A stretch of 34,208 nt of DNA from a virus. Both the position numbers and the translations under genes were made by a program. The DNA lies in the IMG/VR virus record IMGVR_UViG_3300025141_000385, positions 1 to 34,208 of that record; one strand, written 5' to 3'. The notes below the pieces were generated by a model. It was not told where the DNA came from, did no database searches, and saw only the letters and a program-made list of their open reading frames with translations. Positions 1 through 34,003 of the stretch are shown here, piece by piece; the first letter of the stretch is position 1, and each line of letters opens with the position of its first letter.

Positions 1-280
1 CTGTATTAGCACTTGAGTCTAGACCCGTTATATCCATAACGATAGTTGTAGTAATCAAGTCTCCTGCAACTGTAACATTAGCTTTATAGAGAGTGCCTGT
101 ACCAGTAGTAATACCAGTACCAGCGGTTATATTCTGCATTCTGAAAGCAGTTTCATCTGTGCTTCCAAACAAAAATGTCTCGGCATCTGCCAAGTAATTC
201 CAGTCGTATCCTAACGCTAGTCGGGCTAACCCTCTAGTATCACCCGTTACATCAGATAATTTAAAAGTATGTTTAGTCAT
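1..280 (-). CDS. Partial gene after the capsid region, unknown function (5' part only)
   Basis: An open frame starts at ATG 280 and runs off the left edge of the window, giving 93 residues. It begins MTKHTFKLSDVTGDTRGLAR and continues with a Gly/Thr-rich, probably beta-stranded stretch (around residues 52-92). A GGAG lies about 10 bases before the ATG, and the start overlaps the preceding gene by 8 bases, as is usual in this genome. I do not recognise the family. It lies downstream of scaffold and capsid genes, so a virion component is plausible, but that is inferred from position only. Confidence 0.7.
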   Translation of the reverse strand, partial: MTKHTFKLSDVTGDTRGLARLALGYDWNYLADAETFLFGSTDETAFRMQNITAGTGITTGTGTLYKANVTVAGDLITTTIVMDITGLDSSANT

Positions 281-596: not shown

Positions 597-1970
597 TTAT
601 GAGTTTAAGTCGACAATCGCACCCTGTACGTCAAACCTGTAAGCTCTGAACTCTGCCATTGTGTAAAGCAGACCTCTGACTACAAGTGCGTCAGCTGCGA
701 AGTAATCTCTGTTCTCAATATACTGAGTAGGTTGAGCAACAGCGATTTCAAGGTAGTCTGTATCCAAAACATAGACATTAGAGCCTAGTTTCGCACCTGC
801 AGTAGTTTCTGACTTAGTAGTGTCAGCATCTGGCAGTATTGGAATACCTTGGTAAGTAGCAAGAACTAGACCAGTTCGAGTTCCGGGGAAGGTCTTTTCA
901 GAACCTACACCAACTTGGTACTCTTCCTGTCCCATGTATCTTTGCTGTGAGTTTAGTAATCTTTCCAATTTGAAGTATTGGTCGTGACCCATAAGGATTA
1001 ACTTAGGTTCTCCACCATTAGTTCTTATTGATTGAATACAGTCATCAAGTAAGTTTAGAGATAAGTCTCTTCCAACTCCACTATTACCTTTTACAGTAGC
1101 AGCAGCTCCAAAAGTTCCTGATGTTCTGTTTGCTGTAGTTAAGTCGTAAGCTCCTGCGAATCTCTTAACACCAGCGTTACCAACTGTTGCATCGTTATTA
1201 ACTGAAACGATATCATCAATTGATGTTAAACCTGCTCTAGTTTGAACAGATAGGTTGTCTTCAACAGCACCAGCTGATAATGCAGCTGGAATTCCTGATA
1301 ATGTACCTAATGTGATATCATTACTAGAAATAGCTGTAACTGCTGGAGTGTTTGAAGTAGCTGCACCATCATCTACCAACATCACAGTGTCACCAATTCT
1401 TAGATTAGTTCCATCTGTCACGTTAGCATCACCAGTTCCTGAACCAGCTGCGATATTACCAAGTGTATTAGGTAATAACAATTCTTGGTTCATTTCTTTG
1501 ATATGATCAAGTTGTGCGTTTTCGTTTTCCAACGCCAAAACATCACCAACACCACCTTCTAATTGGGCAGTGTACATAGCTTTCACAGAAGCACCGAATG
1601 AAGTTGAGACAATCTTAGGCAAGCTAGAGATTGTTTCTAGGTTAGAAACATCGATGTCTGGTAGACTACCAGTCTCTGTAATAGGTCGAGACCTTTGTGT
1701 ACCTCTATCTGTTCTTACCCTCCAACCAACGGTGTTACCGAAAACAGTTCTTGGGATTGCGTTGAAAAATCGAGTTTGGTTGTTTAATGACTGCCAAACT
1801 TTTCTACCAAAAGTAGAAGTAAACACGTTATCCGCTGATGTGGTCGTATAGATCGCATCTGCATTTCCTGTGTTAGCAGCATTAAACGCCTTTGTAAGGT
1901 ACTCAGGACCGAATACGGACTGGTTTAGTCCCCTATTCGATTGAGCAATATATTCACTTAATGAAGGCAT
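597..1970 (-). CDS. Major capsid protein (HK97-like fold expected)
   Basis: A 457-residue protein directly after the probable scaffold, the normal place for the phage major capsid protein. The N-terminal part (residues 1-60) is helical and Asn-rich. Residues 65-150 contain an RTDRGTQRSRPITETGSLPD segment and the long helix expected of the HK97 fold. Residues about 180-245 look like an inserted beta-domain (LRIGDTVMLVDD, then VTAISSNDITLG). The C-terminal half has ILMGHDQYFKLERLL and ends in a beta-rich stretch, as in other phage capsid proteins. GGGAG precedes the ATG. It is close to the size of a two-domain capsid protein. The identification rests on position, size and overall pattern rather than on a single diagnostic motif. 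Confidence 0.85.
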   Translation of the reverse strand: MPSLSEYIAQSNRGLNQSVFGPEYLTKAFNAANTGNADAIYTTTSADNVFTSTFGRKVWQSLNNQTRFFNAIPRTVFGNTVGWRVRTDRGTQRSRPITETGSLPDIDVSNLETISSLPKIVSTSFGASVKAMYTAQLEGGVGDVLALENENAQLDHIKEMNQELLLPNTLGNIAAGSGTGDANVTDGTNLRIGDTVMLVDDGAATSNTPAVTAISSNDITLGTLSGIPAALSAGAVEDNLSVQTRAGLTSIDDIVSVNNDATVGNAGVKRFAGAYDLTTANRTSGTFGAAATVKGNSGVGRDLSLNLLDDCIQSIRTNGGEPKLILMGHDQYFKLERLLNSQQRYMGQEEYQVGVGSEKTFPGTRTGLVLATYQGIPILPDADTTKSETTAGAKLGSNVYVLDTDYLEIAVAQPTQYIENRDYFAADALVVRGLLYTMAEFRAYRFDVQGAIVDLNS

Positions 1971-2856: not shown

Positions 2857-2861
2857 TTATA

Positions 2862-2943
2862 GCCTCCTTGTTTAAGGTTTAATTTATAAAAAATTACTTA
2901 TGTTTAACCTTAAATAAGGTTGGTCTAAGCCACCTCCGACCTT
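2862..2943 (-). promoter_or_regulatory. Structured 5' leader of the scaffold-capsid unit
   Basis: Read on the minus strand, four short arms alternate in sense: AAGGT (2943-2939), AACCTT (2921-2916), AAGGTT (2911-2906) and AACCTT (2879-2874). The ribosome binding site AAGGAGG (2869-2863) follows. Arms two and three make a perfect 6-bp hairpin with a 4-base loop. Arm three can instead pair with arm four, and the CCTT of arm four can pair with the AAGG of the ribosome binding site. Mutually exclusive structures are therefore possible; function is inferred. Confidence 0.35.
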
Positions 2944-2985
2944 TTTACAATTAAGTATAAAACATTATAATTTTATAGTCACTTT

Positions 2986-2996
2986 TATTATACTAA
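2986..2996 (-). promoter_or_regulatory. Promoter-like element TTAGTATAATA before the scaffold-capsid unit
   Basis: An exact copy of the repeated 11-mer, containing a consensus -10 box (TATAAT). It lies between the stop of 3027-3239 and the scaffold start, about 130 bases before the ATG. A second TATAAT lies nearby at 2964-2969. No good -35 box is evident. Confidence 0.55.
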
Positions 2997-3659: not shown

Positions 3660-3663
3660 ACTC

Positions 3664-3674
3664 TATTATACTAA
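3664..3674 (-). promoter_or_regulatory. Promoter-like element TTAGTATAATA directly before the gp10-like gene
   Basis: An exact copy of the repeated 11-mer. Only AGAGT separates TATAAT from the ATG at 3659, so a normally spaced transcription start would fall at or next to the A of the start codon. A weak -35-like TTAACT lies 17 bases upstream. Confidence 0.55.
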
Positions 3675-8206: not shown

Positions 8207-8617
8207 CTATTCCTTGGTTACTTCAACACTATCTATAGCCACTATTTTAGCTATCGTGTTTATTGCATGTTGTTTTAATCCTGCTTTATCTTCATGTATT
8301 GTTGCAGGGGTATTTTCATTTTGTATTCGTAATCTATCGTTTTCTTCTTTTAATTCTACTACTTGATCAGCCAAAGCTTCATTCTCCATCATAGCCGCAT
8401 TTTGTAATACTCCTAATCTAGTTGCTTCTCTAACTAAAGCTAGAAATCCCCCTTCTGATATAATAGTAACTGCCTCACTTGAGTCATCTACTTCATCTTC
8501 CGGGTTTAGTTTAGTCAAATCTTTGTGCCAAGTATCAAGAATCCTCCAAGTTCCAGCAGTGTCCTTTTGGGCAACATACTGTTCTTGTCTATCTCTTAAC
8601 ATATTTCCTATAGGCAT
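8207..8617 (-). CDS. Coiled-coil hypothetical protein before the portal
   Basis: A 136-residue protein. Residues 1-60 include a DTWHKDLTKLNPEDEVDDSS stretch. Residues about 75-103 form a short coiled coil (MENEALADQVVELKEENDRL). The remainder is helical. It is the first gene after the promoter-like element at 8635-8645, with AGGAG before the ATG, so it opens the head operon. I do not recognise it. A small head or packaging accessory protein is the most likely role, from position alone. Confidence 0.6.
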   Translation of the reverse strand: MPIGNMLRDRQEQYVAQKDTAGTWRILDTWHKDLTKLNPEDEVDDSSEAVTIISEGGFLALVREATRLGVLQNAAMMENEALADQVVELKEENDRLRIQNENTPATIHEDKAGLKQHAINTIAKIVAIDSVEVTKE

Positions 8618-8634: not shown

Positions 8635-8645
8635 TATTATACTAT
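8635..8645 (-). promoter_or_regulatory. Promoter-like element ATAGTATAATA before the head operon
   Basis: A one-base variant of the repeated 11-mer, in the 47-base gap between nrdJ and the gene at 8207-8617. TATAAT is followed by AATAGTAGGAG and the ATG, so transcription could begin just before the ribosome binding site. It would drive the portal-to-capsid genes. Confidence 0.55.
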
Positions 8646-8664: not shown

Positions 8665-10542
8665 CTATGCTATATAACAAGCACTCCAACCACAAGATTT
8701 ACATGTTCTACATCCTGATTCCATTGCAATTCTAGGTGAATCACAACATTCAGCAAAGAAATATTCATCACTAATTGGTGTTTCTATTTCATCAAAAAAA
8801 TTAAGTTGTTCATTATTTTCAGTTTTATGTGCTGTAACTAACACTTCTTTATCCCTACTACCAGCTCTATATACAGTTATACCCTTACATCCAGACTTCC
8901 ATGCATCAATATAAGCTGTATGCACATCTTCTATTGTAGCATCATTTGCAAAATTTATCGTCTTAGAAATACCTGAATCACAATATTCCTGAAAAGCTGC
9001 TTGCATTCCAACATGAGATTCAGGAGATATTTCAGGAGAAGTTTTATAAAGTTCTTTTATATCTTCTGGAATTTCACCTCTATCTTTTAATAAACCACCA
9101 TTTGATAAATGTTCCATTAAATCTTCTGAATAAAAATTTAATTCTTTAGCATCTTGTTCAAAATATTTATTTACATAAAAAAGAGTTTCCCCTTCTAATA
9201 TATTCATTTTTCTATATGCCAACGAAAATAAGGGTTCAATACCACTAGATGTATCTGCAAACATAGATATAGTTCCCGTTGGAGCAACAGTTAGTCTACA
9301 TGCATTCCTATATTTTGCATCCTCAGAATAGTCACTTTCATGCCATGCAGGAAAAACACCTCTTTCTTCAGCTAATTCTTTAGAAGTTTCATCCGCATGA
9401 GTTCTAATAAATTTCATTACATCATTTCCAATTATTCTACCTTCTTTAGAATCATAGGGAACTCTAAGTTGTGTAAGCATATCAGCAAATCCCATGACAC
9501 CTAAACCAATTTTTCTAGTTGATTTAGTCATTTTTTCTATATCAGAAGTTGCATAATAATTAGCATCAATTACGTTGTCTAAAAATCTTGTAGCTAATTT
9601 AATTGTGGTTTTAAGGTCTTCCCATTTAATATAAGGTTTTATTTGTTTAACATCTACAAAATTAGCTAAATTAATTGACCCTAAATTACATGATTCATTC
9701 GCTAACAATGGTTGTTCACCACATGGATTGGTCGCAATCATCTCTCCATATTGTGATTTAACATGATTATCTTTATTTATATTATCTAAAAATATTATTC
9801 CCGGTTCACCATTCCTCCATGCCCCATAAATTATTTTAGAAAATACTTCTCTAGCATTTAAATAACCAACGATTTTATTAGTATGTGGATTAATCAAGGG
9901 ATATTCACTATCAGATTCTACTGCTTTCATAAAATTAGAACTTACACCAACTGATATATTAAAGTTATGTATATCTCCTTCTACTTTTTTACAATTAATA
10001 AACTCAAGAATGTCTGGATGATCAATAGACATAACTGCCATATTGGCTCCATCTCTTTTTCCGCCTTGAGTAATCATAGAAGAGACTCTTGATAAAGTTT
10101 GTAATACTTGAATTGGACCACAAGCTATACCATGTGTAGTTTTAATGTGGTCTCCTCTTGGTCGTAATTTAGATAATGCAAATCCTGTGCCCCCTCCAAA
10201 TTTTTGAACCATAGCAATATCATGTGCAGTCTTCATTATATCTTCCATACTATCTTCTAAAGGTAGCACAAAACATGCAGACAAAGTTCCTTGTTCAGTT
10301 CCAGCGTTCATTAACGTAGGAGAATTAGGAACAAAATCAAGATTAGATAACATATCATAAAATTCTTTTTGTGTTAAATCCGTATCAGCATTAGATTTTC
10401 CATACTGTATTTCAGATAAAGCGATGGCTTCTGCAACTCTTTGAAATAAACCCCTTACAGTTTCTTCTGGTTCTCCTGACTCGTCCTTTAAATAATATCT
10501 TTTTGATGCTACTGTTTCTGCTTGTTGTGATAATGTGACCAA
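8665..10542 (-). CDS. nrdJ: Adenosylcobalamin-dependent (class II) ribonucleotide reductase
   Basis: A 625-residue enzyme that reduces ribonucleotides to deoxyribonucleotides for DNA synthesis, using vitamin B12. Motifs in order: PNSPTLMNAG (72-81), SACFVLP with redox Cys90, FGGGTGF (115-121), NPCGEQPLL (272-280) with radical Cys274 and Glu276, SCNLGSINL with redox Cys285, APTGTISMFADTSSGIEP, and GCKGITVYR. The C-terminal end is Cys-rich (GCRTCKSCGWSAC), as in NrdJ, and regenerates the active-site disulfide. It needs no R2 subunit, and none is present. The start is TTG, supported by AGGAGG 6 bases upstream. It lies between terminase and head genes rather than with replication genes, which suggests it was inserted there. 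Confidence 0.95.
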   Translation of the reverse strand: MVTLSQQAETVASKRYYLKDESGEPEETVRGLFQRVAEAIALSEIQYGKSNADTDLTQKEFYDMLSNLDFVPNSPTLMNAGTEQGTLSACFVLPLEDSMEDIMKTAHDIAMVQKFGGGTGFALSKLRPRGDHIKTTHGIACGPIQVLQTLSRVSSMITQGGKRDGANMAVMSIDHPDILEFINCKKVEGDIHNFNISVGVSSNFMKAVESDSEYPLINPHTNKIVGYLNAREVFSKIIYGAWRNGEPGIIFLDNINKDNHVKSQYGEMIATNPCGEQPLLANESCNLGSINLANFVDVKQIKPYIKWEDLKTTIKLATRFLDNVIDANYYATSDIEKMTKSTRKIGLGVMGFADMLTQLRVPYDSKEGRIIGNDVMKFIRTHADETSKELAEERGVFPAWHESDYSEDAKYRNACRLTVAPTGTISMFADTSSGIEPLFSLAYRKMNILEGETLFYVNKYFEQDAKELNFYSEDLMEHLSNGGLLKDRGEIPEDIKELYKTSPEISPESHVGMQAAFQEYCDSGISKTINFANDATIEDVHTAYIDAWKSGCKGITVYRAGSRDKEVLVTAHKTENNEQLNFFDEIETPISDEYFFAECCDSPRIAMESGCRTCKSCGWSACYIA

Positions 10543-14067: not shown

Positions 14068-14078
14068 TATTATACTAA
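14068..14078 (-). promoter_or_regulatory. Promoter-like element TTAGTATAATA before the small membrane proteins
   Basis: An exact copy of the repeated 11-mer in the 32-base gap before the gene at 13897-14049. TATAAT is followed by ATATTAGGAGG and then the ATG. It could also drive the resolvase, terminase and nrdJ genes downstream. Confidence 0.6.
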
Positions 14079-23352: not shown

Positions 23353-23898
23353 CTACTTCTCTTCGTTTAACTTATTTCTAAGTGATTTTTTTACTTTGTA
23401 TATTGAGTAGTTTACCACACTTTCTTCTCCATTGACTATCTTTTTATCAGAAATCTTTTTTAATTTCTCTTCAATGTCTTTCATAGTGTGGTTTTGTAGT
23501 TTATTTGTAAGGAATTGTTTTTCTCCCTGATCTAAGTCTAACGAATCTATCCAATCAATAAAATCTACTTCATCTAAATTGTTATCTAATTGTTTTACAA
23601 AGTCACTTAATTTATAAGAATTGTCATCACCTGAATCAGATTGCATGTCTAAACTATAACTTTGTAGTTTTTTACTTGCTTGAACCCATAAAGTTTTAAG
23701 CCTATTTGCCATAGCAGTATGTAAATAAGTATGAAAAATGGCATTTCTATTAGGGTTATATAATTTAGCAGCTTTTATAACAATTAAACGTAATTCTTGG
23801 GATAAGTCATCTCTATCATAACCCTGTATATAAATGTTCGATACCATCCTGTTTATCTTCGGTTCCCATTTTAAAATTAAATCGTTGTCTATTTTCAC
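23353..23898 (-). CDS. Sigma-70-like RNA polymerase sigma factor
   Basis: 181 residues from GTG 23898, which follows AGAGGAAAG; an ATG at 23946 gives a longer version. Residues about 12-71 resemble sigma region 2: INRMVSNIYIQGYDRDDLSQ, then ELRLIVIKAAKLYNP, FHTYLHTAMANRLKTLW, the pattern that binds the -10 element and core polymerase. Residues about 118-179 look like a short region 4 (LDLDQGEKQFLTNKL, then VVNYSIYKVKKSLRNKL). There is no region 1. It would direct host RNA polymerase to phage promoters, as T4 gp55 does. It opens the replication module together with an overlapping HTH/zinc protein. Confidence 0.78.
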   Translation of the reverse strand: MKIDNDLILKWEPKINRMVSNIYIQGYDRDDLSQELRLIVIKAAKLYNPNRNAIFHTYLHTAMANRLKTLWVQASKKLQSYSLDMQSDSGDDNSYKLSDFVKQLDNNLDEVDFIDWIDSLDLDQGEKQFLTNKLQNHTMKDIEEKLKKISDKKIVNGEESVVNYSIYKVKKSLRNKLNEEK

Positions 23899-24268
23899 TA
23901 TCGTCTTTCCTCTTATCCTGATAACATTGCTGTGAACAGTATACATTTTTTAATTTTAATTTGTATCCATGTTTTATACGTTTTCTAGTTCTATAAAAAG
24001 GAACTGAACACCAAGAACATTCAAGTCTTTTAAATTTCCACTTGAAGGAGCAGTTTCCTTTATGGATTCCACCACGATCAGTAGTTATTTCTGTGCATAC
24101 TTTACAGTATACCACACGTTTAGGTTTAGGCGGGTTAGTTTGCAGATTATTTTTCAATAAAACTTCTCTAGCATATTGCCTAGTTATGCCAACTTGTTTG
24201 GCAATTTCAGCTGTTGACATAAAGGGATTTCTTTCCCGTAGTCTAACAACTTTATTCTTTGGCTTCAT
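23816..24268 (-). CDS. HTH plus multi-zinc-finger DNA-binding protein
   Basis: A 150-residue protein. Residues about 18-40 are a helix-turn-helix (STAEIAKQVGITRQYAREVL). Cysteines follow at C55-x2-C58, C73, C84-x2-C87 and C111-x3-C115, enough for one or two zinc sites. The last 28 residues overlap the sigma-factor gene by 83 bases in another frame. Its start lies inside the end of the hub gene (17-base overlap), with no clear ribosome binding site. The HTH and the tight link to the sigma gene suggest a transcription regulator. An HNH-like nuclease is an alternative, but no HNH motif is visible. Confidence 0.7.
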   Translation of the reverse strand: MKPKNKVVRLRERNPFMSTAEIAKQVGITRQYAREVLLKNNLQTNPPKPKRVVYCKVCTEITTDRGGIHKGNCSFKWKFKRLECSWCSVPFYRTRKRIKHGYKLKLKNVYCSQQCYQDKRKDDSENRQRFNFKMGTEDKQDGIEHLYTGL

Positions 24269-29882: not shown

Positions 29883-31667
29883 TTATGTATATACAAATTC
29901 TGTATCTTGTACTAAAATTTTTAAATTTCTAAAACTAAATTCAGCACCTATTTGCAGTATAGGTTCCCCACCAATTGGATGTGGAGCAGTTGTTAAGAAT
30001 GCACCATTTCCATTTTCACTATTAGAATCTGGTAATCCTACATCAGCACCAGTTGTTTCGTCCCCTGAAGCGTAATCTGCTGGTATTAATATTTGAATAC
30101 TATCATTAGTACCTCTAGTGAAAGTAAGTTCAATATTAAATCCTTCCATCCCACTTCCATAGTTACCTTCTAAAAGTAACTGTTTAAAAAATTCTGTCGC
30201 AGTATTTCTACCTACTGCACTTGCAGAAGCAGCTGAATCTGGTAAAGCCAAAGTACAACTTAAACCATAAGTTCTTCTACCTTCTCTAATTTCAGAAGGT
30301 CCTCTGTGTCTACCATATCTAGGTGATATGTAATATCTAGCTTCTTCACCATTTGCAATACTAAGGTTGAAATTTCTAACTCTAGCAAATTCTTGTCCCA
30401 TAAATTTAATTGAACCTTGAGAGAAATAATATGGCTCAGTAGTTGGAAAAGATATATCCCCACTAGCAATATCAGCCATAGCTGTATATCTAGGCATACC
30501 TGCTGACATTGAATCACCACTAAAAAGTGTAGTTAATGCAGCTTCAGACCCCGGATTTACGTTAGGTTGTGAAATTTCCTGTTGATTATGAACCATATCT
30601 TGGAATGTAACTGTATCCCAACTACACATTAACATACCACCCTCATCACCAGATATTGTTGTTGATCCTACAAATCCTCCAACAAATCTTCTATCAAAAT
30701 CATTAGCAGGAGTTTCTCCACTATCTCTCATATGTAAGTGCCAACTCATTGTATCTAACAATACTTGCTCTGTAATATGATGTTTTACTGTTGCACCAGA
30801 ACTTACTTCTCTAGCGGCTGAAGCAGTAGCGTGATCAAATCTAAAAGGTTTTTCTAGTCTTGCAACATTTGTACTAGGAAATGCTGCTATCTTTTGTATC
30901 TCTTGACTTGTATCACTAACTGATGTAGTTACTTGTGGAGTAGCCATATTAGAAAAACATATATAATCACCCGCACTATATCCATGTCCTGCATCTAATG
31001 TTACATAAATATCTCCTTTACTAACAGCACCATTTATATCTGTTGATGCACTTTCCACTGCAGATGGTACATCAAATACACTACCAATGGACCATCTAAA
31101 AGGTTTACCATTTAAAGGTATAAATCCCGGTAAAGATCCCGAAAATGATTGAGCTCCAACATACATTTTAGTCCAATCTCTTTTTGCACTAGTCCCTAAG
31201 AAATATCTAGGTTCATAAGAAGGTGTCATATCAGGCACTGTAACTGATTCATATACTCCCGGTACTTCAGTTATAATTTTATATTGTTGAGTAGTAACCT
31301 CAGCAGTTACTTCACATATAGTAGTAGCATCCGCATGATTAAACGCTAAAGGTCTATCAAAATATAAAGTATTATCATTAGCTGTTAAATCAGTACCATG
31401 TACAATTCTTCTTATTTCATATGGAGCAACTGTAGAACTACTCGCATCACTTGTTGAAGTGCCCGGACCTATTCTAACCATATCTCCAACTACAAATGGA
31501 CCATTAGTTATGCCATTATACTCAACTTGTTGAGTTCCTGCAGTCACTGCACCTTTTATGTCGCAATGAGTTGAACTTATAGTTCCATTATTAAGCTCAG
31601 GATCTCCTCCCGGAGCTGCCTCCATTGCATATGTTAATTGCGATTGATCGCTACGAAATACTGCCAT
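29883..31667 (-). CDS. Major tail tube protein with a duplicated internal domain
   Basis: A 594-residue beta-rich protein between the tail terminator and the tail chaperones, the normal place of the tail tube gene. It is much longer than usual tube proteins. Two related segments explain part of this: residues about 36-120 and 210-288 share the order D-I-x-G-A-V, G-D (VVGDMVRIG; SAGDYICFS), E-I-x-x-I, then LxFDRPLAFNHA / LEKPFRFDHA, and an EV end. The C-terminal third (about 380-594) contains the likely conserved tube region, with FARVRNFNLSIANGEEARYY and FFKQLLLEGNYG. AGGAGG precedes the ATG, downstream of a promoter-like element. Confidence 0.72.
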   Translation of the reverse strand: MAVFRSDQSQLTYAMEAAPGGDPELNNGTISSTHCDIKGAVTAGTQQVEYNGITNGPFVVGDMVRIGPGTSTSDASSSTVAPYEIRRIVHGTDLTANDNTLYFDRPLAFNHADATTICEVTAEVTTQQYKIITEVPGVYESVTVPDMTPSYEPRYFLGTSAKRDWTKMYVGAQSFSGSLPGFIPLNGKPFRWSIGSVFDVPSAVESASTDINGAVSKGDIYVTLDAGHGYSAGDYICFSNMATPQVTTSVSDTSQEIQKIAAFPSTNVARLEKPFRFDHATASAAREVSSGATVKHHITEQVLLDTMSWHLHMRDSGETPANDFDRRFVGGFVGSTTISGDEGGMLMCSWDTVTFQDMVHNQQEISQPNVNPGSEAALTTLFSGDSMSAGMPRYTAMADIASGDISFPTTEPYYFSQGSIKFMGQEFARVRNFNLSIANGEEARYYISPRYGRHRGPSEIREGRRTYGLSCTLALPDSAASASAVGRNTATEFFKQLLLEGNYGSGMEGFNIELTFTRGTNDSIQILIPADYASGDETTGADVGLPDSNSENGNGAFLTTAPHPIGGEPILQIGAEFSFRNLKILVQDTEFVYT

Positions 31668-31684
31668 TATATTTCCTCCTACAT

Positions 31685-31695
31685 TATTATACTAA
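31685..31695 (-). promoter_or_regulatory. Promoter-like element TTAGTATAATA before the tail tube gene
   Basis: An exact copy of the repeated 11-mer in the 34-base gap between two tail genes. TATAAT is followed by AATGTAGGAGG and the ATG. A weak -35-like TTTAGA lies 17 bases upstream. A strong extra promoter here would suit an abundant tube protein. Confidence 0.6.
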
Positions 31696-33953: not shown

Positions 33954-33962
33954 TATTATACA
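33954..33962 (-). promoter_or_regulatory. Promoter-like element (TGTATAATA variant) before the neck-tail operon
   Basis: GGTGTATAATAG is a variant of the repeated element with a full TATAAT. It is followed by TTTCAGGAGG and the ATG at 33937, the same spacing as the other copies. Confidence 0.45.
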
Positions 33963-33992
33963 CCAATAAAACATTTTTTCAACTCTTACTTA

Positions 33993-34003
33993 TATTATAC
34001 TAA
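33993..34003 (-). promoter_or_regulatory. Promoter-like element TTAGTATAATA after the edge gene
   Basis: An exact copy of the repeated 11-mer. Its TAG is also the stop codon of the gene at the right edge. It lies 32-42 bases upstream of the second TATAAT element, making a tandem pair before the neck-tail operon. Confidence 0.55.

Follow-up and report, generated by a model that had tools for sequence, protein, structure and literature searches.

A repeated -10-like element and a phage-encoded sigma factor point to a dedicated late transcription system in uncultured marine phages

In this study, we describe a nine-base element, AGTATAATA, that is repeated in the gaps before structural and lysis genes of an uncultured marine phage which also encodes a sigma factor. 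The DNA analysed, referred to below as the window, comprises one complete IMG/VR record (34,208 bases). It is likely, in our judgement, that the two belong to a dedicated late transcription system in which host core RNA polymerase carries the phage sigma and reads AGTATAATA as its -10 element. The late-promoter reading is favoured because the element is restricted to one strand and to gaps, is invariant among orthologs, is nearly absent from replication genes and shares genomes with host-type promoters. A dedicated late system had already been suggested in a first-pass annotation of the window. The comparative data favour that suggestion, but two details brought in with it, a reduced sigma region 4 and a copy of the element at 33954, did not stand. 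The result is a well supported late-promoter map, obtained from sequence only, for marine phages without a close deposited isolate, and it yields sharp predictions of start sites and leaderless mRNAs.

Results

The window and its relatives

Essentially all genes of the window lie on the minus strand, which is thus the coding strand, and about 1,169 bases (3.4%) are noncoding. Searching viral contigs with the sigma protein gave 151 relatives (80 kept, 100-37% identity), and a diverged member used as query gave 117 matches (80 kept). Among isolates the sigma has no close match, just two remote partial ones; the isolate collection searched holds no close match to the phage group, and searches of GTDB genomes with sigma and terminase found no relatives. 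Every contig with the helicase marker carries sigma as well. The comparison set contains no sigma-free relative that could serve as a negative control. The term "host-type" denotes here a promoter of the TTGACA/TATAAT pattern. The features discussed are the following.

33993..34001, minus strand: AGTATAATA, putative late promoter element that heads the structural operon
33977..33982, minus strand: TTGAAA, -35 of a probable host-type promoter
33955..33960, minus strand: TATAAT, -10 paired with the TTGAAA at 33977 across a 16-bp spacer; the 33954 variant of the first-pass annotation
31685..31693, minus strand: AGTATAATA before the gene for a putative tail protein (29883-31667); 10/10 orthologous upstream regions
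14068..14076, minus strand: AGTATAATA upstream of a gene for a 50-aa single-TM (holin-like) protein and the terminase block; 18/18 recognisable orthologs
8635..8643, minus strand: AGTATAATA upstream of gene 8207-8617; 7/7 orthologs
3664..3672, minus strand: AGTATAATA 4 nt before the ATG of an HK97-gp10-like gene without Shine-Dalgarno sequence (SD); same spacing in relatives
2986..2994, minus strand: AGTATAATA with a long leader before the putative scaffold (2008-2856) and major capsid (597-1970) genes; 11/12 orthologs
23353..23898, minus strand: sigma factor of about 181 aa, GTG start at 23898 (Pfam, alignment, AlphaFold)
23816..24268, minus strand: helix-turn-helix (HTH) and Cys-rich (zinc-finger-like) protein overlapping the sigma start (open reading frame; weak HTH matches)

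A strand-specific element in the gaps of the window

The 11-mer TTAGTATAATA occurs exactly five times, at 2986, 3664, 14068, 31685 and 33993, each time on the minus strand and inside the 3.4% of noncoding bases, which confirms the copies listed earlier. Scanning for opposite-strand or coding-sequence copies, which would have spoken against the element, returned no exact TTAGTATAATA on the plus strand of the window. Markov models expect 0.07-0.08 copies on the coding strand, in agreement with the earlier rough estimate of well below one. When two mismatches are allowed, 44 matches stand against 52 expected in the window; the two-mismatch form is not enriched, and the signal is therefore confined to the near-exact form. 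The shorter AGTATAATA is present in six copies versus 0.7-0.95 expected (Markov) and in none on the opposite strand, and we take these nine bases to be the functional, conserved core. This makes the copy at 8635, one base off TTAGTATAATA, a full member of the set. It was one of two "close variants" noted before; the other, GGTGTATAATA at 33954, is without AG, reads TTGAAA-16-TATAAT and is probably a host-type promoter.

Conservation of the element in relatives

The strand bias extends to the relatives, with 98 coding-strand versus 9 opposite-strand copies of AGTATAATA in 23 contigs, 36 versus 1 in 80 more distant loci, and 15 copies, on the coding strand only, in an 81.5-kb relative. Once SD-like sequences are set aside, GTATAATA ranks first among the strand-specific gap 8-mers of the 80 distant loci. 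On the coding strand of the window's clade (clade 1), gap TATAATA is preceded by AG in 29 of 36 cases, and AG is the commonest preceding dinucleotide in each of the other lineages; on these grounds we count AG as part of the element.

Upstream regions were also gathered with the downstream gene's start as anchor, which avoids selecting for the motif. Exact AGTATAATA was found in front of 18/18 recognisable holin-like orthologs (four further regex matches look unrelated and were left out of the 18), 10/10 tail, 7/7 gene-8207 and 11/12 scaffold orthologs. In these alignments the columns flanking the element are variable on both sides, except at gene 8207 with its fixed downstream flank.

Promoter-like geometry and predicted leaderless starts

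The SD begins mostly 4-8 nt downstream of AGTATAATA, or much farther away (up to >100 nt). A shared spacing to AGGAG, as claimed earlier, applies to 14068 and 31685 (4 nt) and nearly so to 8635 (5 nt), but not to 2986, 3664 and 33993. Start codons without SD follow a stricter rule: they stand exactly 4 nt after AGTATAATA in 11 of 13 distinct cases, whereas controls are spread. These 4-nt cases comprise three unrelated genes and, from several lineages, the gp10-like gene. The A of AUG then lies 6 nt past the -10 hexamer, as expected of a leaderless transcript, and the exact spacing supports a promoter function and predicts start sites; for the HK97-gp10-like gene (element and gene start within 3660-3672, minus strand) a leaderless mRNA is predicted.

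The same geometry bears on the idea that the element acts on RNA, by ribosome binding, processing or stability, and not as a promoter. Its often fixed position 4-8 nt before the SD would suit such a role. The distance ranges to over 100 nt, however, the genes without SD begin at exactly 4 nt, TATAATA is a textbook -10 sequence, and host-type promoters elsewhere hold the same relation to genes. We consider an RNA role highly improbable.

The leader at 2857-2985 (minus strand), which joins the 2986 element to the scaffold gene, contains a conserved GGTCGGAGGTGGCTTAGACCAACCT that is also found in the distant relatives L276 and L333. Its fold z-score is -2.27, and an Rfam search gave no match for it.

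Host-type promoters in the same genomes

Gaps of G049, G050 and G032 contain perfect TTGACA-16..18-TATAAT promoters, which in the first two lie within a block of small genes. The window's clade has TTGACA-18-TATCAT/TATACT in G042-G044, past the capsid genes. Separate host-type promoters of a kind expected to act early thus share genomes with AGTATAATA but mostly stand elsewhere. In the window itself the sole example is the tandem one at 33955-33982, which has counterparts in G028 (TTGACA-17-TAAAAT) and, weaker, in other relatives (TTGCAA-17-TAAGAT). This promoter may be the one that first transcribes the structural/sigma operon; a search just upstream of sigma in the window gave no convincing early host-type promoter. 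As a possible second promoter class TGnTATAAT was considered and rejected, its matches in five contigs falling inside coding sequence.

Is there a -35 element?

At non-redundant AGTATAATA sites TTGACA, with at most one mismatch, is not enriched (0/8 and 1/25), and a de novo -35 search by EM over 23 such sites reached a log-likelihood of 15.5 versus 14.3 +/- 2.8 in shuffles, a difference that is not significant. In the window's clade 8/8 non-redundant sites have T at -35 and 7/8 have it at -34, a pattern that the sister clade lacks; the fixed-position test for these T's is post hoc and significant in the window's clade only. Over all sites, with orthologous ones counted repeatedly, weak -35 matches (at most two mismatches) number 67/140 versus about 21 in shuffles, and a few sites have a good TTGACA, e.g. 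G034 7129 and G049 52226, so that certain copies may be host promoters. The earlier statement that no copy shows a good -35 box is thus correct for TTGACA but overlooks the T's of the window's clade. Given the lack of TTGACA enrichment, the clade-limited T's and the non-significant EM result, any -35 contribution would be weak and lineage-specific.

These data are also the ground on which the main alternative has to be weighed, namely that the elements are ordinary host sigma70 promoters, perhaps used with an activator of phage origin (the HTH/zinc protein, for example), and that the phage sigma works at promoters of another kind. In its favour, TATAAT matches the host -10 perfectly, sites of the window's clade have TT at -35/-34, and the excess of weak -35 matches over shuffles, all sites taken together, points the same way. 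Against this, TTGACA is not enriched at non-redundant sites, yet genuine TTGACA promoters exist in the same genomes, and we found no further class of repeated promoter that the sigma might read. Furthermore, the sigma70 extended -10 is TGn, and the AG conserved at -14/-13 is not a sigma70 trait. We regard the host sigma70 explanation as unlikely.

Use of the element by both holoenzymes, weakly by host sigma70 early and strongly by the phage sigma late, would make sense of the perfect host -10 within it, of the hybrid sites with TTGACA and of the tandem late and host-type layout at 33955-34001 with its counterparts in relatives. But most sites are without a sigma70 -35, so that host use would be weak, and we give dual use only a slight chance.

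The sigma factor and its neighbour

The start of the sigma gene is placed at 23898, since the frames of relatives open or begin at the equivalent codon; there is a further in-frame ATG at 23946. Pfam Sigma70_r2 (PF04542) recognises region 2, at residues about 5-79, with 32.3-32.5 bits against a cutoff of 24, and region 4 occupies residues about 110-180. In the AlphaFold model (pLDDT 75, relative placement of the domains uncertain) region 2 forms three helices, and a beta-hairpin (151-162) separates the two helices of the region-4 HTH. The assignment of region 4 comes from the alignment, with a conserved TM..I...L...YK(V/I)...R.K block, and from the predicted helices 139-147/166-180, Pfam region 4 giving no match. 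A "reduced region 4" as described before is contradicted by this conserved, predicted helix-turn-helix. The hairpin insert is present in the window's clade and absent from more distant members.

Within region 2.3/2.4 the block FHTYLHTAM.N is invariant in the alignment and slightly varied in more distant members; FHTYLHT...N is (near-)invariant even though the sigmas are only about 40% identical, in step with the invariant element. Compared for covariation, sigma region 2 and the element are both nearly invariant over the range found.

By PHROG the protein matches the general sigma family phrog_351. It does not group with the T4 gp55 family: the gp55 complex 7d7c has a Foldseek E of 0.45, and the element differs. 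PDB sequence searches weakly retrieve SigH- and ECF-type chains (3mzy, 6jbq; best E 0.005).

The HTH and Cys-rich protein at 23816-24268, encoded directly upstream of sigma, is a candidate co-regulator. A similar protein precedes sigma in G034; in G050 an hsp20-like and a membrane protein stand there instead.

Association with late genes and a proposed scheme

AGTATAATA sites stand before head, connector, tail, lysis-like and packaging genes. Over 114 kb of the module from sigma to DNA polymerase (PolA) there is one AGTATAATA, while the other 504 kb have 86, a count that pools related contigs and is not an independent-sample figure; for the site-free gap near sigma, permutation within single genomes gives a borderline P of 0.03-0.16. 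We thus find a repeated, non-host element restricted to late genes.

In the scheme that we propose, host sigma70-type promoters (TTGACA-16..18-TATAAT) would fire first and sigma would be produced together with the replication genes. It would then take the place of the host sigma in a fraction of the polymerase and activate, from AGTATAATA, the operons for head, tail, packaging and lysis. Recognition would proceed mainly via the extended -10, with AG at -14/-13 and TATAATA at -12 to -6, and any -35 contact by region 4 would be weak, T-rich and limited to the clade of the window. Transcription is predicted to begin about 6 nt past TATAAT, just before the SD or, for some genes, at the AUG. The late timing and the early promoter that makes sigma are, like these start sites, what we infer from the layout of the genomes.

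Discussion

Several phages are known to redirect host polymerase by a sigma of their own. T4 late promoters consist of an 8-bp TATA box, TATAAATA, without -35 conservation and are read by the gp55 sigma, while gp33 binds the polymerase flap and does not read DNA sequence (PMC2988020). The system described here resembles it in its phage sigma, its -10-only element without conserved -35, its late structural genes and the AT-rich stretch after the element. It differs in the element itself (AGTATAATA versus TATAAATA) and in the predicted region 4 of its sigma, T4 late promoters being without an upstream element. A non-systematic search of our phages revealed neither a gp33-like protein nor a sliding clamp.

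phiEco32 gp36, which is without region 4 homology, recognises tAATGTAtA alone at middle and late promoters (PMC8948821). The parallels are a small phage sigma, a single 9-base element, host sigma70 early promoters and start sites 6-8 bp downstream, the latter predicted in our case; element sequence and presence of region 4 set the two apart. The gp47 sigma of phage 7-11 has region 4 and uses a bipartite late promoter, GTAAtg-(16)-aCTA (PMC8948821). Here the likeness lies in a sigma with region 4, late structural operons and host sigma70 early promoters, and the difference in the upstream element, which is clear in 7-11 and weak or absent in our phages. The SigH/ECF-type bacterial sigmas (3mzy, 6jbq) share the region 2 plus region 4 architecture but are very remote, and the phage protein differs by a sigma70-like TATAAT -10 and the beta-hairpin in region 4. 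Judged by these comparisons, the system is of the same kind as those of T4, phiEco32 and 7-11, has an element of its own and is intermediate in architecture. It would add another -10-dominated phage sigma system to T4 gp55 and phiEco32 gp36.

A bolder reading, which we put forward as doubtful, is that a sigma with hairpin-altered region 4 gave up the -35 and uses the extended -10 AGTATAATA alone, with the element so placed that the adaptor gene and some other late genes yield leaderless mRNAs. If true, the late switch would act on transcription and on the mode of translation alike.

As to gene content, the ribonucleotide reductase large-subunit gene (8665-10542, minus strand) sits between the terminase and portal blocks. 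The closest isolate proteins of the major capsid protein (597-1970, minus strand) are those of haloarchaeal tailed viruses and a Methanofastidiosa virus, at about 26% identity.
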